Source: Bacteroidetes bacterium QS_3_64_15
GTDB lineage: Bacteria > Bacteroidota > Rhodothermia > Rhodothermales > Salinibacteraceae
Assembly (NCBI GenBank): GCA_003022565.1
Contig: PXTN01000118.1
Span: 1 to 57,877, forward strand
Length of the DNA: 57,877 nucleotides
Reading direction: 5' to 3'
The notes under the pieces were generated by a model. It made no database searches and was not told the origin of the DNA. It was given only the letters and a program-made list of their open reading frames with translations. The translations under genes and the position numbers were made by a program. Each line of letters opens with the position of its first letter. The stretch's first letter is position 1. This document shows positions 159 to 56,400 of the stretch, piece by piece.

Positions 159-247
159 GTGATGCGTGAGGAGTGATGCGTGAGGTACAAGTCGGTCTGT
201 ACTGCCTCCCTCACTCTTCACGTGTCACGCATCAAGTCACGCATCAA
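159..247. repeat. Facing heptamer arrays: GTGATGC GTGAGGA GTGATGC GTGAGGT (+) and TTGATGC GTGACTT GATGC GTGACAC GTGAAGA GTGAGGG (-)
   Basis: Read directly, between rmlB stop and rmlA start. Confidence 0.9.
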
Positions 248-5402: not shown

Positions 5403-5934
5403 GGGCCTTCTCTCGCAGGCGTTCTTTGAGGGCCTTGCGCTGCCGCCGAAAGTGGGGCTCGAAATCCCAGTACATGCGAGCGACCTTCGAGAAGAAGCAA
5501 CCGTGATGGAAATCGTCTCGGGCATAGAGAAGAACATTCGGGCGCAGCACCTCGAACTGCACCACGAGCGGTGCGTCGTTGAGCACGACGAGGTCGATCC
5601 AGTCCCGCTCCGCCGCCTCCATGCAGTCGGTGATCAATGGGACCTTGTGGTCGGTGGGCGCCCAACGGTCCGGATCGACGACGATGCCGAGGTCGAGGTC
5701 GCTGCGGTCCCGTTCCCGATCGGCCGCCACGGATCCAAAGACGTACGCCGCCCGCACGGCCGGATGCGCCGCAAACACTTCTCGGAGCCGATCTGCTTTA
5801 TCGTCGGACAGCATGATACATGCTTGCAATTCCATCCCCATCTCGACCCCGGCTCCCTCAATCTCTCTCAACGAACGTGGGATCGCGCCCGGCTCCAAGC
5901 GTCCCTCCACACTTCCACACGTCCGCACCTCCAC
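5395..5934 (-). CDS. MNT-type nucleotidyltransferase antitoxin (pair 3; true start possibly 5814-5840)
   Basis: AAYVFGSVAADRERDRSDLDLGIVVD; overlaps downstream HepT start. Confidence 0.85.
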   Translation of the reverse strand: MEVRTCGSVEGRLEPGAIPRSLREIEGAGVEMGMELQACIMLSDDKADRLREVFAAHPAVRAAYVFGSVAADRERDRSDLDLGIVVDPDRWAPTDHKVPLITDCMEAAERDWIDLVVLNDAPLVVQFEVLRPNVLLYARDDFHHGCFFSKVARMYWDFEPHFRRQRKALKERLREKAHG

Positions 5935-5938
5935 ACGT
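5907..5938. repeat. Four tandem degenerate 8-mers (CCACACTT CCACACGT CCGCACCT CCACACGT)
   Basis: Read directly; lies immediately 3' of the cysNC stop codon. Confidence 0.85.
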
Positions 5939-5940
5939 CT

Positions 5941-13652: not shown

Positions 13653-15215
13653 ATGATGACCTCCAAACTAGAGCAATTCCCATCGTGGACGTGGCTCCGC
13701 GGGCGGATTCCCCTCCTGCTCGTCCTGCCGGACCTGCTGGTCCTGTACGGCGGCCTCCTCCTCGGCTACCGGATTCGGTTCGGCGAGTGGCTGTGGCCCC
13801 ACGCGACCGAGTGGGGCGTTGCCTCCCTCCTCGTCCTGGGCGTCTACGGGGGCGCGCTGGTCGCGAGCGGCGTGTATCGCCTGTCGCCCCGCCTGATGCA
13901 TCTCTCGGAGTTCATTCGAGTGGGCACGTGGCTGATCGGCGCGTGGGGCCTCTCGATCCCGCTCACCTACGCGGTGGATCCTGCCGACGTACCCCCTCGG
14001 GGCGTGATGGCCGTACTGGGGCTGGCGGCCCTCGTCGGCGTCCTGGGCGTCCGGGCCGGGGCGCGTCGTCTGCTGGAGCATCTTTCCACCGCACCCGACG
14101 AACCGGCCTCCGGGATGGCGTCGACCTCCCTGCGGCTGGACGACCTTGTCCCCCGCGACCCTGTGGAGATCAACCGCTCGGCCCTGCGCGACGTTCTCTC
14201 CGACCGTACCATTCTAGTAACTGGCGCGGGCGGGTCGATCGGATCGGAACTGAGCCGTCAGCTGGTGTCCCTCAATCCCTTCCGGCTCACATTCGTGGAC
14301 GTCAGCGAGCACAACCTGTACCGGCTCGAAAAGTCGCTGCGCACGGAGCGCTATGATGGCGAGATGGACTTTTGCATCGCCGACGTGCGCGATGCATCCC
14401 TCATGGACGACCTCTTCGCCCGCCTTCAACCCGACGTGGTGCTCCACACGGCGGCCTACAAGCACGTGCCCCTGATGGAGCGCCACCCCGCCGAGGCCTT
14501 CCGCAACAATACGCAGGCGTCGGTCAACCTGCTCACCCTCTGCGAGGAGCACGACGTCGACCAGTTTGTCTTCGTCTCCACCGACAAGGCGGTGAATCCC
14601 GCCAGCGTGCTCGGGGCGACGAAGCAGCTGGCAGAGTGGTATGTGCGCACGGGCGGTGGGGCCACGCGGTGCAGTACGGTGCGCTTCGGCAACGTCTTCG
14701 GAACGCAGGGCAGCGTCGTCCCCCGGTTCGAGGAGAAGTTGGCGGCGGGCGAGCCGGTGCCCATCACGCATGCGGACATGGAGCGCTACTTCATGAGCCC
14801 AGAGGAGGCCTGCGGCCTGATCCTGCAAACCCTTCTCCTGAATGCCCATCCCACCCACATCTTCCGCATGGGCGACCCGATCCGTATCCGGTGGCTGGCC
14901 GAACGCCTCATCGAGCACTGGTACCCGCACGTCGACCCGGAGACGATGATCGAGTACGTGGGGCGGCGGCCCGGGGAAAAGATGAGCGAGCAGCTCGTGG
15001 AGAACGAGGAATCGGCCCACCCCACCGACCATCCGAGCATCCTGGGGCTCGACGGGCCGGTGCCGTACACCCGCGCCGAGCTCGACGCGCACCTGCAGCG
15101 GCTCCAGTCGGTCTCCTCCCCCACCCGCGAGTCGCGGGAGCACCTGCGCAAGCTGCTGCTCAACACGCGCCCCGATGGGCGTGAGACGGCTGAGAGCGTG
15201 AAACGTGAGGTGTGA
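13653..15215 (+). CDS. CapD/WbpM/FlaA1-like nucleotide-sugar dehydratase, shortened N-terminal region
   Basis: DRTILVTGAGGSIGSELSRQLVSLNPFRLTFVDVSEHNLYRLEKSL...HTAAYKHVPLMERHPAEAFRNN...FVSTDKAVNPASVLGATKQLAE. Confidence 0.9.
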   Translation: MMTSKLEQFPSWTWLRGRIPLLLVLPDLLVLYGGLLLGYRIRFGEWLWPHATEWGVASLLVLGVYGGALVASGVYRLSPRLMHLSEFIRVGTWLIGAWGLSIPLTYAVDPADVPPRGVMAVLGLAALVGVLGVRAGARRLLEHLSTAPDEPASGMASTSLRLDDLVPRDPVEINRSALRDVLSDRTILVTGAGGSIGSELSRQLVSLNPFRLTFVDVSEHNLYRLEKSLRTERYDGEMDFCIADVRDASLMDDLFARLQPDVVLHTAAYKHVPLMERHPAEAFRNNTQASVNLLTLCEEHDVDQFVFVSTDKAVNPASVLGATKQLAEWYVRTGGGATRCSTVRFGNVFGTQGSVVPRFEEKLAAGEPVPITHADMERYFMSPEEACGLILQTLLLNAHPTHIFRMGDPIRIRWLAERLIEHWYPHVDPETMIEYVGRRPGEKMSEQLVENEESAHPTDHPSILGLDGPVPYTRAELDAHLQRLQSVSSPTRESREHLRKLLLNTRPDGRETAESVKREV

Positions 15216-15239
15216 AACGTGAGGCGTGAAACGTGAAGC
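15198..15239. repeat. Six perfect-period tandem heptamers GTGAAAC GTGAGGT GTGAAAC GTGAGGC GTGAAAC GTGAAGC
   Basis: Read directly; overlaps the last codons and stop of the CapD-like CDS. Confidence 0.95.
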
Positions 15240-15271: not shown

Positions 15272-15343
15272 ACACCCTAACACTCCAACACTCCAACACC
15301 CCTACGCCCCCACGCTCTCACACCCCCACGCTCCCACTCGCCC
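15272..15343. repeat. Nine tandem degenerate 8-mers (ACACCCTA ACACTCCA ACACTCCA ACACCCCT ACGCCCCC ACGCTCTC ACACCCCC ACGCTCCC ACTCGCCC)
   Basis: Read directly; strict 8-nt spacing of the AC start. Confidence 0.92.
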
Positions 15344-15361
15344 TCTCCCCCATTCCCGAAT

Positions 15362-25788: not shown

Positions 25789-26487
25789 TCAGAGGTACCG
25801 GTGCAGGTAGTCCATCACGGCATCGGGGCCGTCGAGGCGGGCGGCAGCCCGCGTGTCGTCGCCGCCAATCTTGATGGTAACGGCCTCCCGGTTCATGTCC
25901 TGCAAGGCCGCGAAGGCGTCCTCGTCCGTCACGTCGTCCCCCAGGTAGACGGGCACGCGGTCGGGGTGCGCCTCCGCAATGCGATGAACAGCGGTGCCCT
26001 TCGTGAGCCCCGCAGGCCGGAGCTCCACCACCTTCTTGCCCCAGATGGCATCGAGCACCTCCGGCAGGTCGGCGAGCCACTCGTCGAGCCGCGCCCGTAT
26101 CCCCGGCTCGTCCTTCACGTCGCGGTAGTGCACCGCAAACGACTGGTCCTTCTCCTCCACCCGAAGCCCCTCGATCGACGGCACAGACGTGCGAAGGCGG
26201 CGGAGCGCCTCGGCGGCGGCGTCGGACATGAGATTGTTCGTCTCCCGCCCCACGATGCCCTCCTGCGCCCCGTGCAGTCCAATGGCGCGGTACGGGCGAT
26301 CGAGGAACGACGAAAGCGCCTGCAGGTCGCGCCCCGTCACGATCCACAGGGGATAGTGCGCCTCCAGCTCTCGGAGGAGGTCGGGCGCCTCGGGGTGCGG
26401 CACCGCTGCCTCCGGGTCGTCGACGATGGGGGCGAGCGTGCCGTCGTAGTCCAGAAAGAAGAGGGGATCGTCAACGACGGGGGGCAT
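25789..26487 (-). CDS. otsB: Trehalose-6-phosphate phosphatase
   Basis: PLFFLDYDGTLAPIVDDPEAA...VYLGDDVTDEDAFAAL HAD-IIB motifs; next to otsA-like gene. Confidence 0.9.
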   Translation of the reverse strand: MPPVVDDPLFFLDYDGTLAPIVDDPEAAVPHPEAPDLLRELEAHYPLWIVTGRDLQALSSFLDRPYRAIGLHGAQEGIVGRETNNLMSDAAAEALRRLRTSVPSIEGLRVEEKDQSFAVHYRDVKDEPGIRARLDEWLADLPEVLDAIWGKKVVELRPAGLTKGTAVHRIAEAHPDRVPVYLGDDVTDEDAFAALQDMNREAVTIKIGGDDTRAAARLDGPDAVMDYLHRYL

Positions 26488-26549
26488 GTGGCTGTACGGG
26501 TCGATGCGTACGGTCAAAGTGCGAGGAGACTGCCCTCCTGTCAGACAGC

Positions 26550-26604
26550 GTGAATCGTGATGCGTGACTCGTGACTGGAGTCGAAGCCGCCCTCACGCAT
26601 CACT
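26550..26604. repeat. Heptamer array GTGAATC GTGATGC GTGACTC GTGACTG plus short inverted arm (TCACGCATCAC)
   Basis: Read directly; the inverted arm covers the otsA stop codon. Confidence 0.88.
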
Positions 26605-28012
26605 CCTGGATCGAGCTGAGGAAGTTGCCCGCCCAGTTGTGCACGTCGAGCGTCTCGGTGGTGTCCTTGAGCCCGTCGATCCGCTTCTCGCGCTCCTGCC
26701 GGGGCATTTCGAGGGCGGTGCGGATGGCGGTGGCCACGCCGCCGTGGTCGTAGGGGTTCACCTGCACGGCCTCGGGCAGCAGGTAGGCCGCGCCGGTGAG
26801 CTCCGAGAGGATGAGCACCCCGTCCTGCGAGGCAGTAATGAACTCCTGGGTGACTACGTTCATGCCGTCGCGGAGGGGCGTGATGAGCGCGGCGTCGGCC
26901 GCCCGGTAGAAGGCGCAGAGCTCGTACTGCGTGTACGTGCGATAGCGGTAATTGACCGGCACCCAGCTGTCCTGGGCAAAGCGGCCGTTGATGCGGCCCA
27001 CCACCTCGTCGACCTCACGCCGGATTTTCTGATAGGACTCCAACTCCGTGCGGCTCGGCGTGGCGATCTGGAAGAAGCTCACGTTGCCGTGGTACTCGGG
27101 GTTGTCCTCCAGAAACTTCTCGAACGCCAGCATGCGGGAGCGGATGCCCTTCGTGTAGTCGAGCCGGTCGATGCCGATGACGATGTGATCGGAGCCGAGC
27201 CCGTCCCGAAATTTCTGTCCTTTCTGCCTGATGGACTCGTCGTGGGCCATCTCCTGGAACCGATTCACGTCGATCCCAATCGGGTGCGCCTCCACCCGGG
27301 TCACCTGCCCGTCGTACCGAACCCGGTTGCCATCCACCTCAGCGCCGAGCAAGACGTCGGCGCTCTCGATAAAGTTGTCGACGTACTCTTCCACGTGGAA
27401 CCCGATGAGGTCGCACCCCAGCATGCCGCGGAGCAGCTCGCGCGACCACGGCAGGATGCGAAAGATTTCCATGGCGGGCCACGGAATGTGCCAGAAGTGC
27501 CCGATCGTGGCATCCGGTCGCTCCTGCCGGATGAGGTTGGGGGACAGCATCTGGTGGTAGTCCTGAATCCAGATGACATCTTCCCCGCCCCGCTCCGTCT
27601 CGTCGAGCACGGCCTCGGCGAAACGCTCATTGACGTGGCGGTACGTTTCGATGAACTCCTCATTCAGCTCGAGGTGCTGGATGAGGTAGTGCGACAACGG
27701 CCAGAGAATTTGATTGGCCATGCCATAGTAATACCCGTCGAGCTCCTCGGTACTCAGCGGCACGCGCCGCACGAGGAAGTCCGGATCGTCGGCCGGATAC
27801 TCTTGACGCTCCGGCAGGTCCGGCTCCTCGCCCATCCCCACCCACAGGCCGCCCTGCTCTTCGAGGACGGGGAGGAGGGCCGTGGTGAGCCCGCCCACCG
27901 ACGTTTCCCACCCCTCGTCGGTCTGTCGAATAGGGACGCGGTTCGCGACTACGGTTACACTCAAGGCAATGTCGGTGGCGTCGTGAAGGAAACATCGGAT
28001 CTGGTGTTGCAC
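26600..28012 (-). CDS. otsA: GT20 trehalose-6-phosphate synthase (glucosylglycerol-phosphate synthase not excluded); true start probably internal near 27970
   Basis: SVTVVANRVPIRQ...VIWIQDYHQMLSPNLIRQERPDATIGHFWHIPWPAMEIFRILPWSRELLRGMLGCDLIGFH...GIDRLDYTKGIRSRMLAFEKFL. Confidence 0.87.
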   Translation of the reverse strand: MQHQIRCFLHDATDIALSVTVVANRVPIRQTDEGWETSVGGLTTALLPVLEEQGGLWVGMGEEPDLPERQEYPADDPDFLVRRVPLSTEELDGYYYGMANQILWPLSHYLIQHLELNEEFIETYRHVNERFAEAVLDETERGGEDVIWIQDYHQMLSPNLIRQERPDATIGHFWHIPWPAMEIFRILPWSRELLRGMLGCDLIGFHVEEYVDNFIESADVLLGAEVDGNRVRYDGQVTRVEAHPIGIDVNRFQEMAHDESIRQKGQKFRDGLGSDHIVIGIDRLDYTKGIRSRMLAFEKFLEDNPEYHGNVSFFQIATPSRTELESYQKIRREVDEVVGRINGRFAQDSWVPVNYRYRTYTQYELCAFYRAADAALITPLRDGMNVVTQEFITASQDGVLILSELTGAAYLLPEAVQVNPYDHGGVATAIRTALEMPRQEREKRIDGLKDTTETLDVHNWAGNFLSSIQE

Positions 28013-28535: not shown

Positions 28536-28979
28536 ATGACGTTCCCCGACCCCGACTCGTTCCGCGAGATCGACCACACCGGCGACATTGGAATTCAGGT
28601 GACCGCCCCGACGCTGCCCCGCCTCTTCGAGCGGGCGGCCCTCGGCACGTTTCACGTGCTCACCGACCTCGACGCGGTGCAGACGCCGGATGCGACGAGC
28701 ATCGCGGTGGACGGGCGCGACCGGGAGGCGCTCATGGTGCGGTGGCTCTCCGAACTCAACTATCGCCACACCGTCGACAACGTCCTCTACGCCTCGTTCG
28801 AGGTAGCGTCCATCGATAACGCTAACGACGGCCTCACTCTCACGGCTACCGCCCGCGGCGAGCCCATCGACCCCAATCGGCACACCGTCTACACCGAACT
28901 CAAAGCGATCACGTTTCATGGCCTCGACGTGCATAAAACGGACAACGGCTGGGCCGTGCAGGTGATTTTTGACATGTGA
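28536..28979 (+). CDS. Archease
   Basis: FREIDHTGDIGIQVTAPTLPRLFERAALGTFHVLTDL...LMVRWLSELNYRHTVDNVLYASFEV; next to rtcB. Confidence 0.9.
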   Translation: MTFPDPDSFREIDHTGDIGIQVTAPTLPRLFERAALGTFHVLTDLDAVQTPDATSIAVDGRDREALMVRWLSELNYRHTVDNVLYASFEVASIDNANDGLTLTATARGEPIDPNRHTVYTELKAITFHGLDVHKTDNGWAVQVIFDM

Positions 28980-29046: not shown

Positions 29047-29147
29047 GTGATACGTGAACCGTGATGTGGGCTTCACCGCGTGCGCTTTCTCACGCCTAAT
29101 GCATCACGTTTCACTCGTCTCACGTTTCACTCGTCACGCCTCACGCA
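29047..29147. repeat. Facing heptamer arrays: GTGATAC GTGAACC GTGATGT (+) and GTGAGGC GTGACGA GTGAAAC GTGAGAC ... GTGAAAC GTGATGC (-)
   Basis: Read directly in the archease-rtcB gap. Confidence 0.88.
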
Positions 29148-29224: not shown

Positions 29225-30670
29225 ATGCCCAACTACGATCTCGAAAAGCTCGACGACTACCGCTGGCGCGTTCCGAAGCAGGGTCGCATGCAGGTGCCCG
29301 CCCGCCTGTACGCCACCGAAGAGATGCTGGAAGACATTCTCTCGGACGACGCCCCCCAGCAGGCGATCAACGTGGCCCACATGCCCGGCATCGTGGAGGC
29401 GTCGATGGCCATGCCCGATATTCACTGGGGCTACGGCTTTCCCATCGGCGGCGTGGCTGCGTTCGACGCCGACGATGGGGTGATTTCGCCTGGGGGGGTG
29501 GGCTACGATATTAACTGTGGCGTACGTTTGTTATCGTCCAAGTTAAAAAAAGAAGATCTTGACCGGCGCGACACCGAGCGTCTCGTCGACGCCCTTTTCC
29601 ACCGCGTGCCGACCGGCGTGGGGTCGTCCGGCGCCCTTCGCGTCGATCATTCGACGCTGCCTCGCGTGCTGAAGAACGGCGCCGAGTGGGCTGTGAACGA
29701 GGGCTACGGCTCCGACGCCGACCTCGACGTGATCGAGGAGGGCGGGCAGGTAGACGGGGCCGATCCCGACGCGGTGTCCGCCCGGGCGAAGGAGCGGGGC
29801 TTGCCCCAGCTCGGCACGCTCGGCTCCGGCAACCATTTCCTGGAGGTCGGCTACGTGTCGGAGATCTACGATGAGGAAGCCGCCCGCGTGATGGGACTCG
29901 ACGAAGGCAGCGTTACCGCCATCATCCACTCCGGCTCGCGGGGCTTCGGGTACCAGGTGTGCGACGATGCGCTGTCGGACATGGACAAGGCGATGAACAA
30001 GTACAACATCGAACTGCCCGACCGCCAACTCGCCTGCACGCCCATCGACTCGCCGGAAGGACAGAAGTACATTCGCGGCATGCAGTGCGCCATCAACTAC
30101 GCCTTTGCCAACCGGCAAGTGATGGCCCACAACACGCGCCTTGCGTTTGAGGACGCCCTCGACGTGACGCCCCGCGAGCACGGCCTGCGCACGGTCTACG
30201 AGGTGGCGCACAACATCGCCAAGTTCGAGACGCACCGCGTGAACGGTGGCGAGCAGGAGGTATGCGTGCACCGGAAGGGGGCCACGCGGGCGCTCCCGGC
30301 GGGGCACCCGCTCGTGCCGGGCCGGTATCAGCACGTGGGCCAGCCCGTCCTCATCCCCGGCGACATGGGCCGCTACTCGTACGTTCTCGTCGGCACCGAC
30401 GCGGCGATGGACGAGACGTTCGGCAGCACGTGCCACGGCGCCGGGCGCCAGATGAGCCGTCGCCGGGCCCGCAAGATGGCGGGCAACCGTAACGTCACCG
30501 CCGAGCTGGCCAACGAGGGCATCATTGTGCGCGGGGAGAGCAGCCGCACGGTCCGGGAGGAGATCTCGGAGGCCTACAAAGACGTGGCCGACGTGGTGGC
30601 GGCTGTGGAGGGCGCGGGCCTCTCGAAGAAGGTGGCGCAGCTCCGGCCGCTCGGCGTGATCAAAGGGTGA
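29225..30670 (+). CDS. rtcB: RNA-splicing ligase RtcB
   Basis: VPARLYATEEMLEDIL...VAHMPGIVEASMAMPDIHWGYGFPIGGVAAFDADDGVISPGGVGYDINCGVRLL. Confidence 0.96.
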   Translation: MPNYDLEKLDDYRWRVPKQGRMQVPARLYATEEMLEDILSDDAPQQAINVAHMPGIVEASMAMPDIHWGYGFPIGGVAAFDADDGVISPGGVGYDINCGVRLLSSKLKKEDLDRRDTERLVDALFHRVPTGVGSSGALRVDHSTLPRVLKNGAEWAVNEGYGSDADLDVIEEGGQVDGADPDAVSARAKERGLPQLGTLGSGNHFLEVGYVSEIYDEEAARVMGLDEGSVTAIIHSGSRGFGYQVCDDALSDMDKAMNKYNIELPDRQLACTPIDSPEGQKYIRGMQCAINYAFANRQVMAHNTRLAFEDALDVTPREHGLRTVYEVAHNIAKFETHRVNGGEQEVCVHRKGATRALPAGHPLVPGRYQHVGQPVLIPGDMGRYSYVLVGTDAAMDETFGSTCHGAGRQMSRRRARKMAGNRNVTAELANEGIIVRGESSRTVREEISEAYKDVADVVAAVEGAGLSKKVAQLRPLGVIKG

Positions 30671-31042: not shown

Positions 31043-31122
31043 GGTCCGTGATGCGTGAATTCTTGAGCTACGAGTCTATGCTCTCACATTCTCACGCCCT
31101 CCTCCGTCCGCGCCGCTGGGCC

Positions 31123-31154
31123 TCCACACGTCCACACCTTCACGCTTCCACACC
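31123..31154. repeat. Four tandem degenerate 8-mers TCCACACG TCCACACC TTCACGCT TCCACACC
   Basis: Read directly; heptamers GTGATGC GTGAATT lie just upstream at 31048-31061. Confidence 0.88.
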
Positions 31155-31212
31155 TCCCCCTCCCCCATTCTCCCATCTAGTACCCTCGCACGCACAGTCT
31201 CCAACCAAACGC

Positions 31213-49928: not shown

Positions 49929-49956
49929 GACTCACGTTTCACGCGTCACGCATCAC
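49929..49956. repeat. Four tandem heptamers, minus strand GTGATGC GTGACGC GTGAAAC GTGAGTC
   Basis: Read directly; encodes the last residues (VMRDA) and stop of gltB. Confidence 0.95.
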
Positions 49957-52900
49957 CGCAGCTACGGGGGTCGGCTCCGACGGCGAGGGAGGCACGGACG
50001 GCCGGATGTCGTCTCCCTGCTCAAGGTTCGCCTCCACCTGTCGGGCGAAGGCCTCGGGCATGACCTTGCGGAACTGGTCGACGCGGTGGTCCCACTCGGC
50101 CAGTATGCGCTCAGCCTTGGCGCTGCCGGTGTGGTGCCGGTGCATCTCGACGAGACGGCGAACAAGGCGGCGGTCCCGCTCGCCGGTGAGCCGCTCGACG
50201 CGGACCATTCCCGTGTTCACCTTCTCCTCGAACGTACTCGCTTCATCAAACACATAGGCCTCCCCGCCGCTCATGCCCGCGCCGAAGTTGCGCCCCGTGT
50301 CGCCGAGGACGACCACCACGCCCCCGGTCATGTACTCGCAGCCGTGGTCGCCCACGCCCTCCACCACCGCCTGCACGCCGGAATTGCGCACCGCAAAGCG
50401 CTCGCCGGCCTGTCCGTTGACGTACGCCTCGCCGCGCGTCGCGCCGTAGAGCGCCACGTTGCCGAGGAGGATGTTCTCGTCGGCCTCATAGCCGGCGCTC
50501 TCGGGCGTGCGGAGGATGATGCGTCCCCCGGAAAGGCCTTTGCCGACGTAGTCGTTGGCCTCGCCCGCCAGGTTGAGCGTGACGCCGGAGGCGAGAAACG
50601 CACCGAAGCTCTGCCCGGCGACGCCCTCCAGATCCACCTGAATGGTGTCCTCGGGCAGCCCCTCAGGCCCGTAGCGGCTGGTCACCTCGGAGCTGAGCAT
50701 GGCCCCCACCGTGCGATCCCCGTTTGAGATGGCGTGCTCGATGTGAACCGGGGCCTGATCCTCCAGAGCCGGGCGCGCCTCATCGATGAGCGTGTGGTCG
50801 AGCTTGCAGTCCAGGCCATGATCCTGCTCCATCGTCTTCCGCGGGTCGTCGTCGCTGGACGAGCGGTGCAGGATCGGGCTAAGGTCCAGTCGGCGGGCCT
50901 TGGGATGATCGGTGTCGGTCTGTTGGAGCTTGTCGGTGCGGCCCACCATCTCATCGACCGTGCTAAAACCAAGGTCGGCCATGATTTCGCGCAGCTCCCC
51001 GGCCACGAAGTGCATGTAGTTCATCACGTGCTCGGGTCGGCCCACGAACTTCTCGCGCAGCTCCGGGTCCTGCGTGGCAATGCCGACCGAGCAGGTGTTG
51101 CAGTGGCACTTGCGGAGCATGATACAGCCGAGGCACACGAGCGCCCCGGTGCCGAAGCCATACTCCTCGCCCCCCAGCAACGCGGCGATGGCCACGTCGC
51201 GCCCCGTCTTGAGGCCGCCGTCCACTCGCATCCGAATGCGGGAGCGGAGATCGTTCTCCAGAAGCACCTGCTGTGCCTCCGACACGCCCAGCTCCCACGG
51301 GAGCCCCGCGGACTTGATGGAGGTCTTCGGCGAGGCGCCGGTGCCGCCGGACTGCCCGCTGATGAGCACCGCGTCGGCCTTGGCCTTGGCCACGCCCGCG
51401 GCGATGACCCCGATGCCGGCCGCCGCCACGAGCTTCACGTGCACGTCGGCGCTCGGATTGGCGTTCTTCAGGTCGTGGATGAGCTGCGCGAGGTCCTCGA
51501 TCGAGTAGATGTCGTGGTGCGGCGGGGGCGAGATGAGCGACACGCCGGGCGTGGTGTAGCGCGTCTTGGCGATGAGGTCGTTCACCTTTTCGCCCGGCAG
51601 GTGCCCGCCCTCGCCCGGCTTCGAGCCCTGCGCCATCTTGATCTCGATGTGGTCAGCGTTCGTCAGGTAGCTGCTCGTGACGCCGAACCGCCCGCTGGCC
51701 ACCTGCTTGACCCGGCACTCGCGCTCGGTGCCGAAGCGGTCCACCTGCTCGCCCCCCTCGCCCGTGCTCGCCTTGCCGCCGAGGCGGTTCATGGCGACGG
51801 CGAGCGTCTCGTGCGCCTCCGGGCTCAGCGAGCCGAACGACATGGAGGCGGTGAAGAACCGCTGCACGACGGACGAGACCGGCTCCACCTCGCCGATCGG
51901 AATGGACTCGTCGGGATCGGTGTCGAAATCAAGCAGGCCCCGGAGCGTCTGGTGTGTGTTGGTCTGCTCGTTGACGAGGGCCGCAAACTTGTCGTACGCG
52001 CCCTGGCGGTTCTGGCGCACCGCGTGCTGCAGCCTGCCGATCGTCTGCGGGTTCCACTGGTGGTGCTCCCCGTCGCGCCGCCAGTAGAGCTCACCGCCCG
52101 TTTCGAGCTCGGGCGACCCCGGAATCGTCGCGTCGAACACCGTCCGGTGCCGCTCGCGGACGTCGGCCTCAAGTTCATCGATCCCCGCGCCTTCGATGCG
52201 GGAGGTGGTGCCGAAGAAGTAGTCCTCGACGACCTCGGAATTGAGGCCTACCGCCTCGAAGACCTGCGCGCCCTTGTAGCTCTCCAGCGTGGAGATGCCC
52301 ATCTTGGCCATCACCTTCAGGAGGCCCTGCTCCACGGACTGGATGTAGCGCTCGATCGCCGTGGCGGCGTCGGCCACCTCGTCGCTGCGCGCGGCAAGGT
52401 CGCGGACGGTGGCGTAGGCGAGGTAGGGGTGGACGGCGTCGGCCCCGTAGCCGAGCAGCGTGCAGAAGTGATGGACCGCACAGGGCTGCCCGCTCTCAAG
52501 AACGAGCCCGGCGTGGGTGCGCCGGCCCGCGCGGATCAGGTCGTGGTGGACGGCGCCGACGGTGAGGAGGCTGGGAAGAGGAATGCGGTCGCGCCCCACG
52601 GCCCGGTCGGAGAGGAAAAGGAGCTCGGAACCGTCGTCGACGGCCTGTCGGGCGTCGCGCCGAACGCGCTCGACGGCCTGCTCGAGACTCGTGTCCCGCC
52701 CGAAGGTAGTGTCGATTGTCGTCGATTGGATCCCCTTCGAGTCCACGTGGTGGAGCGCCTTCAGCTCCGCGTCGCCGAGGATGGGCGAGTCGAGGTGGAG
52801 CTGCCGACAGTGCTCCGGTCCCTCCGTCAACAGATTGCCCTTACGTCCGACGTGGCTTTCGAGCGAGGTGACCAGCTCCTCGCGGATGTAGTCGAGGGGC

Positions 52901-54540
52901 GGGTTCGAAACCTGCGCGAAGAGCTGCTTGAAATACGAAAACAGGGTCTTATTCTGGTCCGACAGGACGGCGGGCGGCGTGTCGTCGCCCATCGCGCCCA
53001 CCGGATCCTTGCCGTCCTCCACCATCGGCTGCATGAGGCGGCGCACGTGCTCCCGCGTGTAGCCGAAGGTCCGCTGGCGCCGGGAGAGGGCGTGCGGGTC
53101 GCCGTTCAGGTGCAGGTCCGCCTCCGGCACGAGCGCGCCCCGCGGCGTGTCGCCGGACACGAGGGTGCGGAGCCGGGTCCGCTGTTCGTCGAGCCACCGG
53201 GCGTACTTCTCGTCGGTGAGGCGCCCGAACACCTCCTCTTCCGGCACGATGCGCCCCTCCTCCGCGTCGGCGAGGAACAGCTGGCCCGGTTGGAGCCGGT
53301 CCTTCCGCGCCACACGTTCGGGCGGCAGATCGATCACGCCGGCCTCGCTGGCCATCACGAGGCGGTCGTCGTGCGTCACCCAGTAGCGACAGGGCCGCAG
53401 CCCGTTGCGGTCGAGCACGGCGCCGACGCTGTCCCCGTCGGTGAAGGCCACGAGGAGCGGCCCGTCCCACGGCTCGATGAGGGTGGAGTGGTAGTCGTAC
53501 CAGGCCCGCCGGGCCGGATCCATGGTGTCGTCCTTGCGCCAGGCCTCGGGAATGAGCATGCGCAGGGCGTGGGGGAGCGACCGCCCGCTCTCCACGAGCA
53601 GCTCCAGTACGTTGTCGAGCACCGCCGTGTCGCTCTGCGCCTCGGTGGTGATGGGCCGGATGCGGTCGAGCTCGTCCCCGAACGCGTCTGTCCGAAGGTC
53701 GCCCTCCCGCGCCCGCATCCAGTTGAGGTTGCCGCGGAGGGTGTTGACCTCGCCGTTGTGGATGATGTTGCGGTACGGGTGCGCCAGGCGCCACGCCCCC
53801 AGCGTGTTGGTGGAAAAGCGGGAGTGGACCAGCGCGAGGGTCGACCGCACGCGGTCGTCGGACAGCTCCGGGTAGTAGCTCCGGACCTGCGCGTTTGTGA
53901 GGAGCCCTTTGTAGACCACCTTCCGCCGATCCAGCGAGCAGATGTAAAATGTCTCACTGTCCTTCAGGCCGCTGTCCGCCACGTCGTTCTCGATGAGGCG
54001 GCGGAGAATGTAGAGCTGCGCGTCGAGCGCCTCCGGCGATACTGGCTCCGTGGGCCGCACGAAGAGCTGCCACACGTCCGGCTCCGTCGCACGGGCTGTA
54101 GGACCCAACTCAGACGCGTCCGTGGGCACGTCGCGCCAGGCGATCGTTTCAAATCCTTCGGCCTGCACGCGCCGATCAATGAAATCGCGGAGCGCCGACT
54201 GGACGCTCTTGTCGGCCGGGAGAAAAAGCTGCCCGACGCCGTACGAGTCTGCGTCGCCAAGCCCCGACACCACATCCTGAAAGAACGCATGCGGCTTCTG
54301 GATCAGGATGCCGGCGCCATCGCCCGTGTTGTCCTCGGCTCCGCGGGCGCCGCGGTGGTCGAGGCATTCGAGCACGCCGAGGCCTTCCTCAACCATGGCG
54401 TGGCTCTTCTCGCCGTCGAGGTCCATGAGGACGCCGACACCACAGTTCGATCGGCTTCGCCGGGGGCCAAGTGCCGGACGGGTTGAGGATGGCACGAGGG
54501 ATGGGGGTGGGGAGGAGTGACCCATGATCGTGTCGTGCAC
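49939..54540 (-). CDS. gltB: Glutamate synthase large subunit
   Basis: NCGVGVLMDLDGEKSHAMVEEGLGVLECLDHRGARGAEDNTGDGAGILIQ; MAQGSKPGEGGHLPGEKV; CIMLRKCHCNTCSVGIATQDPELREKFVG. Confidence 0.96.
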   Translation of the reverse strand: MHDTIMGHSSPPPSLVPSSTRPALGPRRSRSNCGVGVLMDLDGEKSHAMVEEGLGVLECLDHRGARGAEDNTGDGAGILIQKPHAFFQDVVSGLGDADSYGVGQLFLPADKSVQSALRDFIDRRVQAEGFETIAWRDVPTDASELGPTARATEPDVWQLFVRPTEPVSPEALDAQLYILRRLIENDVADSGLKDSETFYICSLDRRKVVYKGLLTNAQVRSYYPELSDDRVRSTLALVHSRFSTNTLGAWRLAHPYRNIIHNGEVNTLRGNLNWMRAREGDLRTDAFGDELDRIRPITTEAQSDTAVLDNVLELLVESGRSLPHALRMLIPEAWRKDDTMDPARRAWYDYHSTLIEPWDGPLLVAFTDGDSVGAVLDRNGLRPCRYWVTHDDRLVMASEAGVIDLPPERVARKDRLQPGQLFLADAEEGRIVPEEEVFGRLTDEKYARWLDEQRTRLRTLVSGDTPRGALVPEADLHLNGDPHALSRRQRTFGYTREHVRRLMQPMVEDGKDPVGAMGDDTPPAVLSDQNKTLFSYFKQLFAQVSNPPLDYIREELVTSLESHVGRKGNLLTEGPEHCRQLHLDSPILGDAELKALHHVDSKGIQSTTIDTTFGRDTSLEQAVERVRRDARQAVDDGSELLFLSDRAVGRDRIPLPSLLTVGAVHHDLIRAGRRTHAGLVLESGQPCAVHHFCTLLGYGADAVHPYLAYATVRDLAARSDEVADAATAIERYIQSVEQGLLKVMAKMGISTLESYKGAQVFEAVGLNSEVVEDYFFGTTSRIEGAGIDELEADVRERHRTVFDATIPGSPELETGGELYWRRDGEHHQWNPQTIGRLQHAVRQNRQGAYDKFAALVNEQTNTHQTLRGLLDFDTDPDESIPIGEVEPVSSVVQRFFTASMSFGSLSPEAHETLAVAMNRLGGKASTGEGGEQVDRFGTERECRVKQVASGRFGVTSSYLTNADHIEIKMAQGSKPGEGGHLPGEKVNDLIAKTRYTTPGVSLISPPPHHDIYSIEDLAQLIHDLKNANPSADVHVKLVAAAGIGVIAAGVAKAKADAVLISGQSGGTGASPKTSIKSAGLPWELGVSEAQQVLLENDLRSRIRMRVDGGLKTGRDVAIAALLGGEEYGFGTGALVCLGCIMLRKCHCNTCSVGIATQDPELREKFVGRPEHVMNYMHFVAGELREIMADLGFSTVDEMVGRTDKLQQTDTDHPKARRLDLSPILHRSSSDDDPRKTMEQDHGLDCKLDHTLIDEARPALEDQAPVHIEHAISNGDRTVGAMLSSEVTSRYGPEGLPEDTIQVDLEGVAGQSFGAFLASGVTLNLAGEANDYVGKGLSGGRIILRTPESAGYEADENILLGNVALYGATRGEAYVNGQAGERFAVRNSGVQAVVEGVGDHGCEYMTGGVVVVLGDTGRNFGAGMSGGEAYVFDEASTFEEKVNTGMVRVERLTGERDRRLVRRLVEMHRHHTGSAKAERILAEWDHRVDQFRKVMPEAFARQVEANLEQGDDIRPSVPPSPSEPTPVAAVMRDA

Positions 54541-54663
54541 CTTTTCGTATGTGGGCCGCGTATTGGCGGCAGCCGCGCCGAACGGCAGTTTTTAGCAATC
54601 CGTGTAAAGGGACTCCATAGATGAATGAAAGAGCTATTAGTATCAAACCACGATTCGGGGCAA

Positions 54664-54705
54664 AGCGCTTCCAGTCACTACTTCTTTACAAGAAAGCGCT
54701 TCCAG
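54664..54705. promoter_or_regulatory. Two direct copies of AAAGCGCTTCCAG, candidate operator
   Basis: Core AAGCGCTT palindrome repeated about 30 bp apart in the divergent gltB/amidohydrolase intergenic region. Confidence 0.4.
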
Positions 54706-54768
54706 AAGTCCGTACCATTTTGATGTACCGTTCTTTCGTAAGACTTTTCGTTTGACTCACGGCGTCCG

Positions 54769-56400
54769 ATGACCTCCTCGCCCGACCTGCTCCTGCACAG
54801 CGCGCAGATCTATACCGTCGACGACCAGCGGCCGACTGCCACGGCTCTCGCCGTCCGCGACGGCCGGTTTGTCGCCGTTGGGGACGCCGATGAGATGGTG
54901 GCGGCCTTCCCCGAGGCCCCGCGAATCGACGCGGGCGGTCGCACGGTCGTGCCCGGATTTATCGACGCCCACGCCCACCTTCAGGAATTGGGCCTTTCCC
55001 TGCACCGGGCCGACCTCACGGACGCACAGTCACCGACCGGCGTCGTGGAGCAGCTTCGAGACTTTGCGGCCGACCACGACCTTCCCGACGGCGCCTGGCT
55101 CCGCGGGCACGGCTGGGACCAGACGGACTGGACGGTCCCGCGTTCGCCCACCCGAGCCGCCCTGGATTCGGCGTTCCCCGAGCGGCCCGTGTGGCTCACC
55201 CGGACCGACGTGCACGCCGGCTGGGCAAACACGGCCGCCCTGGAGGCCACCGTCGGGCTGGACCGTCTCCGCCGGATGAGCGATCCGGATGGGGGGCGCA
55301 TTGAACGAGATGCCGACGGCACCCCGACCGGCGTCCTCGTCGATGCGGCCATGGCCCCGGTCGAGGCCCACCTCCCGTCCCCGACCGCGGCGCAGAAGGA
55401 GCGCGCCCTCTCTACAGCCCTCCGGCACGCCGCCCAACACGGCATCACCGGCCTTCACGATGCAGGCGTCGATCTCGACACCATTCGTCGCTTTCAGCGC
55501 TTCATCGAGGTGGATCAGTTTCCGCTCCGCGTCTACGCCATGATCGACGGGCGCGGCGACGCCTTCGACCACTTCTGCGACGACGGGCCCGTCCGCCGTC
55601 CCTCCAGTCGCCTCGACGTGGCGTCGGTCAAGTTTTTTGCCGACGGGGCCCTGGGCAGCCGCGGCGCCGCCCTGCTCGACGACTACGCCGACGATCCGGG
55701 CAACCATGGGCTGCTCCTCCACGACGAGTCCTCTTTTCGGCGGAACGTGCAGGCGGCGGTCGAGTGCGGCTTTCAGGTGAACACACACGCCATCGGCGAC
55801 CGCGCGAACCGGGTCGTACTGGACGCTTACGAGGCCGCGATGGAGAGGTGCGCGGCGCCGGTCCGGCGACCGCGCGTCGAGCACGCCCAGGTTGTCCATC
55901 CCGACGATTTTTCCCGGTTTGGCGACCTCGGGGTGATTGCTTCTGTTCAACCCAGGTTCCCAACCAGCGACAAGGACTGGGCCCCGGCGCGCCTCGGCCC
56001 CGATCGGCTCGACGGTGCATACGCCTGGAAGAGCCTCCGGGAGGCCGGTGCGCCCCTTGCGTTTGGGTCCGACGCTCCCGTCGAGCCCATCGACCCGATT
56101 CGGGGGATCCACGCCGCCGTCACCCGCCAGGACGACGACGGGCATCCCGACGAGGGCTGGCGCCCCGAGGAACGAGTGTCCCGCCAGACCGCTCTCCACG
56201 CCTACACGCAGGGCGCCGCCTACGCCGGATTCTGGGAGGACAGCCTCGGATCCATCACGCCCGGCAAGTGGGCCGACTTCGTGGTGCTTTCTCAGGATCT
56301 CCTGAGAGTTCCTGCCTCCCGCCTTCTCGACACGACGGTCGTCGCCACGTACCTCGACGGATCTCCGGTTTATGCCTGCGACGACTGGCCGGAGGCGTGA
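54769..56400 (+). CDS. Amidohydrolase (YtcJ-like family)
   Basis: DLLLHSAQIYTVDDQRPTATALAVRDGRFVAVGD...VVPGFIDAHAHLQELGLSL...HAIGDRANRVVLDAYE...FGSDAPVEPIDP. Confidence 0.92.
   Translation: MTSSPDLLLHSAQIYTVDDQRPTATALAVRDGRFVAVGDADEMVAAFPEAPRIDAGGRTVVPGFIDAHAHLQELGLSLHRADLTDAQSPTGVVEQLRDFAADHDLPDGAWLRGHGWDQTDWTVPRSPTRAALDSAFPERPVWLTRTDVHAGWANTAALEATVGLDRLRRMSDPDGGRIERDADGTPTGVLVDAAMAPVEAHLPSPTAAQKERALSTALRHAAQHGITGLHDAGVDLDTIRRFQRFIEVDQFPLRVYAMIDGRGDAFDHFCDDGPVRRPSSRLDVASVKFFADGALGSRGAALLDDYADDPGNHGLLLHDESSFRRNVQAAVECGFQVNTHAIGDRANRVVLDAYEAAMERCAAPVRRPRVEHAQVVHPDDFSRFGDLGVIASVQPRFPTSDKDWAPARLGPDRLDGAYAWKSLREAGAPLAFGSDAPVEPIDPIRGIHAAVTRQDDDGHPDEGWRPEERVSRQTALHAYTQGAAYAGFWEDSLGSITPGKWADFVVLSQDLLRVPASRLLDTTVVATYLDGSPVYACDDWPEA

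Follow-up and report, generated by a model that had tools for sequence, protein, structure and literature searches.

Repeats between bacterial genes are generally sorted by their sequence. Under such a scheme, elements whose sequence turns over while their shape and place last would be missed by homology searches. In the trnL (tRNA-Leu UAA) intron of Nostoc and Calothrix, the P6b region carries heptanucleotide repeats of two classes, Class I (TDNGATT) and Class II (NNTGAGT); in Nostoc the repeats pair into a hairpin, variation falls mostly in unpaired positions, and class replacement has occurred repeatedly and independently (PMC4476775, PMC3488679). Geobacter metallireducens has 'global regulator binding sites' of classes 1-3 (GTTGCTYN, TCTCCGTS[Y] and MTYCTGA), proposed to be IHF/HU sites (PMC2700814). 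The TAACTGA repeat is a near-fixed unit that lies 5' of start codons, for the most part in the same orientation; one inverted set is reported from the Beggiatoaceae genome studied (PMC4679880). The omega/ParB protein of pSM19035 is a ribbon-helix-helix protein that sits on unspaced 5'-WATCACW-3' heptads (PMC9499535).

We analysed a 57,877-nt stretch of DNA (the window) from a genome in the genus of Salinibacter ruber. The second contig of one comparison genome, G003, matches S. ruber plasmid pSR35 at 100% with identical coordinates, which identifies this member of the genus as S. ruber DSM 13855 or the same strain; the window genome belongs to another species. All six GTGANNC arrays listed in an initial annotation of the window are present, as are the inverted partners that it had placed near the first and fourth of them (Table 1). 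Its description of a degenerate heptamer in fixed phase, not produced by slippage of one perfect unit, was borne out; the family is genome-wide, and position 7 is indeed often C (215 of 296 units). The window contains 0 tRNAs and 0 Rfam families, and its elements are intercistronic rather than in P6b of a trnL group I intron.

Table 1. Arrays, arms, neighbouring genes and the dispersed repeat; positions are those of the window unless a locus or contig is named.
Feature	Position	Strand	Remarks
5' arm, GTGATGC GTGAGGA GTGATGC GTGAGGT (4 units)	159..186	+	
3' arm of the 159-186 element	208..243	-	first 3 units (208-228) contiguous and of GNNTCAC type, the rest degenerate
Degenerate octamer array CCTCCACA CTTCCACA CGTCCGCA CCTCCACA	5904..5940	+	related period-8 class
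Six-unit array, the originally reported finding	15198..15239	+	no opposite arm found
Degenerate octamer array AACACTCC AACACTCC AACACCCC TACGCCCC ...	15279..15345	+	separate, in the same gap as the 15198-15239 array
Trehalose-phosphatase gene, otsB-like	25789-26517	-	
Arm, 4 units	26550..26577	+	otsA-otsB gap
Opposite arm to 26550-26577	26590..26603	-	12 bases off; at the 3' end of the glycosyltransferase-20 gene
Glycosyltransferase-20 gene, otsA-like	26600-28012	-	
Archease gene	28536-28979		flanks the archease-rtcB gap on the other side from rtcB
5' arm, 3 units	29047..29067	+	archease-rtcB gap
3' arm to 29047-29067	29101..29144	-	units at 29101-29114 and 29117-29144
rtcB	29225-30670		flanks the archease-rtcB gap
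Two-unit array	31048..31061	+	no partner arm found
Array, 4 units	49929..49956	-	3' end of gltB (49939-54426, -)
Longer dispersed repeat	L174:4218-4440, L170:13485-13634, L188:17955-18170		four further places, on C1, C8, C75 and C92

Wider counts were taken from a 586-kb sample, made up of the window and 33 stretches picked mainly around arrays, with genes called by a simple codon-score script; the window genome is incomplete (84%, 131 contigs), and several of the tests are post hoc. The sample holds 77 arrays of at least three GTGANNN units, against 0 after dinucleotide shuffling, three rounds of which gave two-unit arrays only and none of three or more units. Counted as overlapping matches, (GTGANNC)x3 occurs 68 times in the whole genome and the reversed pattern 0 times, so the arrays are not confined to the window; both outcomes are in line with what had been proposed. 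Lag identity peaks at 7, 14, 21 and 28 in the gaps of the sample and not in its genes. A consensus-free scan for four-period arrays returned 52 gaps of the sample for period 7 and 17 for period 8, with 0 in shuffled gaps for either, each list including one N run (16 gaps at period 8 without it). Periods 5 and 6 gave 10 and 7 and each of periods 9-11 gave 1, where shuffled gaps had 3, 1 and 0; the excess is mainly at periods 7 and 8. Chance or composition as the origin is rejected by the shuffled and reversed-pattern controls together with the consensus-free scan, and a MAG or assembly artefact is unlikely, since G003 (S. ruber DSM 13855) has the same elements.

Besides the octamer arrays in Table 1, sites of the CCTCCACA / GCGTNTGG type lie at 31120-31165 of the window and at L177:17857, L181:11454 and L194:4892. 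Of 13 members of the genus that were checked, 12 have the three-unit GTGANNC pattern, which is patchy in other families of the order. Among public genomes, the four-unit pattern occurs in at least 120 stretches, from Chloroflexota, Desulfobacterota, Verrucomicrobiota, Bacteroidota, Proteobacteria and others. One genome of the same order (G055, loci L339-L368) carries another heptamer, GTGCNNA (mostly GTGCAAA), with 77 matches in long near-perfect arrays; these are mostly perfect tandem arrays, and the single pair seen is inward. As a separate observation, an identical array, GTGATGC GTGAAGC GTGAGCC, lies inside a longer dispersed repeat at seven places (Table 1), for which a search of plasmids gave 0 matches.

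Inspection of whole gaps showed that the arrays are two arms of one element, composed of (GTGANNC)n, a spacer and (GNNTCAC)n. Neighbouring opposite arrays at most 100 bases apart face inward in 111 cases and outward in 1 across all sets, counts that include related loci, and all 23 pairs from named loci of other phyla, which come mainly from separate genomes, are inward. The inward rule means that the arms work together as a single unit of dyad symmetry. A second family, GTATTKC, in which GTATTGC and GTATTTC alternate near-strictly, is arranged likewise (11 pairs inward, 0 outward), and both arms of an element always belong to one family (78 + 11 concordant, 0 mixed). The initial annotation was right that the repeats are real; it missed the inward-facing arm pairs, which are half of the structure, as well as the other heptamer and octamer families with the same habit and the keeping of place while sequence is replaced. 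Adjacent units avoid carrying the same NN (0.05-0.07 versus 0.11-0.13 expected), and units at lag 2 share it above expectation (0.17-0.40), giving a 14-nt superperiod. Spacer length is a multiple of 7 in 27 of 84 cases (p = 3e-5).

The 49 array-bearing gaps of the sample comprise 36 co-directional, 10 convergent and 3 divergent ones, a depletion from divergent gaps that is borderline (p = 0.06). Elements lie inside operons, between gltB and gltD, otsA and otsB, archease and rtcB, and ilvB and ilvH; further operon sites are the gap after leuA, HlyD-AcrB-OEP (acrA/acrB/OEP-type) efflux genes, and ilvD with an aconitase-C (leuD-like) gene. This location argues against an intrinsic terminator after the last gene.

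Two other features concern gltB and rtcB. Between gltB and an amidohydrolase gene (54769-56400), the window has two AAAGCGCTTCC motifs at 54640-54710, with about 40 bases from one to the other; several species keep the pair in this divergent gap, whose remaining sequence drifts, and it is likely an operator. In G008 (C124), G010 (C4) and G012 (C54), the RtcB match is split into two parts (1-98 and 96-481), which lie some 1.5 kb from each other within one open frame of about 1000 aa. The split resembles that caused by an intein; its place is the same in the three species, and G000 lacks it.

The 5' arm begins at the stop codon, and its first GTGA provides the stop TGA in 12 elements. Of 35 stop codons near an array, 21 share its register, and the first unit serves as the stop in 12 of the 13 overlapping cases, which means that genes do not merely run into arrays, because units 2 and 3 would then serve equally often. 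Unlike this trend, the partnerless arrays at 15198 and 49929 have the stop in their third unit (TGA at 15213-15215 for the gene at 13653-15215, and at 49941-49939 for gltB). The intergenic location given in the initial annotation needs correction for these two arrays, which are not purely intergenic: each runs into the end of a gene and contributes its stop codon. Supply of stops in three frames by TGA units was rejected as a general reason for the arrays: it fits GTGANNC and fails for GTATTKC, which contains no stop.

The predicted RNA folds of the elements have a mean of −32 kcal/mol (median z −4.3), with −44.3 kcal/mol for 156-250 of the window. Facing NN positions pair at 0.275, against 0.355 with arms re-dealt among loci (z = −3.7), so the helices stay short; those of at least 12 bp occur in 1.2% versus 9.7% (p = 0.004). 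The GTATTKC family, by inspection, reaches a similar end, one arm tending towards GTATTTC and the other towards GTAGTGC or GTGGTGC. Outside the genus, NN pairing looks high at 0.61, but the null there mixes genomes and the figure supports no conclusion. Core changes on the sense strand show no G.U preference, with 12 that preserve G.U against 19 of the A.C type. The NN of the 5' and 3' arms, read in the sense direction, do not differ (p = 0.40), identical double core changes occur in 3 of 294 unit pairs, and the arm lengths of a pair are uncorrelated (rho −0.09).

Orthologous gaps were matched by reciprocal best hits and adjacency. Between G000, which is incomplete, and G006 (80% aa identity), the element is in both at 11 gaps, in G000 only at 7, in G006 only at 0 and in neither at 28 (Fisher 2e-6); both samples are array-enriched, and the odds ratio is unbiased if the two selections are independent. 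At one site (L178:8902 in G000 and its G006 counterpart), the element and the flanking gene ends are almost identical in species that otherwise share about 80%, possibly reflecting recent transfer.

The more closely related G011 and G003 (96.6% aa identity; about 25 elements in this one species pair) share 20 sites, versus 1 of 98 gaps without a G011 element. Unit gain and loss, for which a strain comparison had been suggested, is seen here as 14-nt unit changes. At 5 of the 20 shared sites the family differs, GTGANNC in one genome and GTATTKC arms in the other, both arms having switched together, with flanks about 93-98% identical and a gap that is not alignable; the exchange runs both ways. 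The gltB-gltD gap likewise has a GTATTKC inverted pair in G001, G003, G010 and G011 versus the GTGANNC array in the window, and the archease-rtcB gap has an inverted GTGANNC pair both in the window and in G005. Place and shape are kept over evolution while the sequence is swapped, which suggests that shape matters more than letters: where a position is shared and its sequence swapped, structure would be what is kept.

We tentatively propose, at somewhat less than an even chance, that the elements are transcribed, helix-interrupted intercistronic stem-loops conserved as structure. Each array would be one arm of a short stem-loop, mostly between co-transcribed genes, beginning at or just 3' of the upstream stop codon and, we infer, folding in vivo. 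The arms would pair via the repeated 5-nt core, CGTGA/TCACG or, in the GTATTKC family, CGTAT/ATACG, and leave the two variable positions per heptamer largely unpaired, giving short helices with small internal loops between them. Because every unit has the same core, several pairing registers would be available and 7- or 14-nt unit gain or loss in one arm would be tolerated; sliding of the stem by one unit would explain both this tolerance and the absent arm-length correlation. The element would be kept in place for its structure, and its sequence family swapped whole. The likeliest role would be at the mRNA level, as a stem-loop that separates cistrons and protects 3' ends, and the simplest reason for the reduced NN pairing would be that the stem is kept below the uninterrupted duplex length inviting RNase III. 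In favour of such stem-loops are the inward arrangement, arms of one family, orthologous sites that are shared and can switch family, lowered NN pairing with few long helices, the predicted folding, the operon sites and the stop codons in register, with the class switches of the Nostoc trnL P6b stem as a precedent. Against them stand the lack of a positive RNA signature in core changes, arms and double changes, the uncorrelated arm lengths, spacers in multiples of 7, for which a free RNA loop has no need, the strict inward orientation, which base pairing does not explain, and the partnerless arrays at 15198 and 31048.

Some of these same points would suit a DNA operator. The heptamer would then be a half-site for a small, omega-like DNA-binding protein stacking on unspaced 7-bp repeats, the arms would form a two-sided nucleoprotein element, GTATTKC would call for a second protein, and the octamers for one that reads 8 bp. 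The 7-bp step, the fixed core with free positions, its overlap with the omega heptad (TCAC inside WATCACW), the continuation of the 7-bp lattice across the spacer, the missing RNA wobble signal and the reduced NN pairing would all fit. We nevertheless consider it unlikely: no reader protein is known, and the omega repressor itself was rejected as a candidate, with family PF07764 over cut-off in 0 of 60 relatives. Moreover, a reader would have to change where the place is kept while the family switches, and omega operators mix orientations whereas the Salinibacter arms are strictly inward. The parS half-site GTGAAAC was set aside as an explanation, since the parS palindrome is outward and only one NN variant fits. 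The inward rule is accounted for neither by stem-loops nor by heptad operators.

An origin without function also seems improbable. Here 7- and 14-nt slippage and template switching would enlarge arrays in tolerated gaps, long perfect repeats and palindromes being avoided because they are unstable. Such a process could leave the 14-nt unit gain and loss between G011 and G003, the lag-2 enrichment and the period-7 excess across several sequence families, and heptanucleotide repeats are abundant in bacteria (review, PMC4679880), but it does not fit near-perfect cores, positions common at 80% protein identity, arms always of one family or a single orientation. A selfish or mobile cassette, with arms as the ends of a miniature element that inserts 3' of stop codons and replaces older copies, is somewhat less likely still: the single orientation resembles that of terminal inverted repeats, replacement at one site is wholesale and a longer repeat has the same array at seven places, but spacers are unique, arms vary among copies, sites are shared through vertical descent, the gaps showed no clean empty site flanked by a target duplication, and REP/RAYT mobility was rejected since Y1_Tnp (REP transposase) presence does not track arrays, with 0 in array-rich G000, G011 and G023 (G000 and G023 being incomplete).

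If the pattern is borne out, an intercistronic element has gone unnoticed in dozens of operons of a model halophile that is in culture, and there would be a testable frame for why heptamers dominate bacterial tandem repeats; the inward-only rule in many phyla calls for a mechanism. We regard as conceivable, though doubtful, a bacteria-wide intercistronic class set by architecture and not by sequence, of which STRRs, Nostoc P6b and the Geobacter pairs would be local cases. Its architecture, equally speculative, would combine a 7- or 8-nt lattice, two inward arms of shared core, helices kept short by avoided pairing, a stop-codon anchor and interchangeable sequence families. We found no paper describing the Salinibacter elements in a search that covered subscription journals thinly, and literature searches with the array sequences gave unrelated matches only.

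Among known systems, REP/BIME elements with Y1 transposases are likewise intergenic, palindromic and multi-copy but have no tandem heptamers. The omega heptads share unspaced 7-bp units and the TCAC/GTGA core; they are plasmid partition sites in mixed orientations (PMC9499535), and their protein family was not found here. STRRs and TAACTGA are similar in being intergenic heptamer arrays, patchy across distant phyla, with 7-nt strain indels (PMC4679880). The Salinibacter arrays share with STRRs direct heptanucleotide tandem repeats, intergenic and in many copies, but neither cyanobacterial origin nor motifs. The G. metallireducens sites are alike as tandem octamers or heptamers, mostly in opposite-strand pairs at variable distance and in many copies, but by inspection their consensus units differ, and family switching and orthologous positions were not analysed in that study (PMC2700814). 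The comparison with cyanobacterial heptanucleotide repeats made in the initial annotation was apt, but a paired structure is nearer: by analogy, the closest described counterpart is the stem-loop in the Nostoc trnL intron, with its two classes of degenerate heptanucleotide. Common to both are a degenerate 7-nt unit on both stem sides, unit-length indels, variation mostly at unpaired positions and replacement of the motif class at the same site. The trnL P6b repeats occupy one site in a cyanobacterial group I intron, whereas the Salinibacter elements, built from other motifs, lie between cistrons at dozens of places in Rhodothermota, and, unlike in trnL P6b, their facing NN pair below chance.
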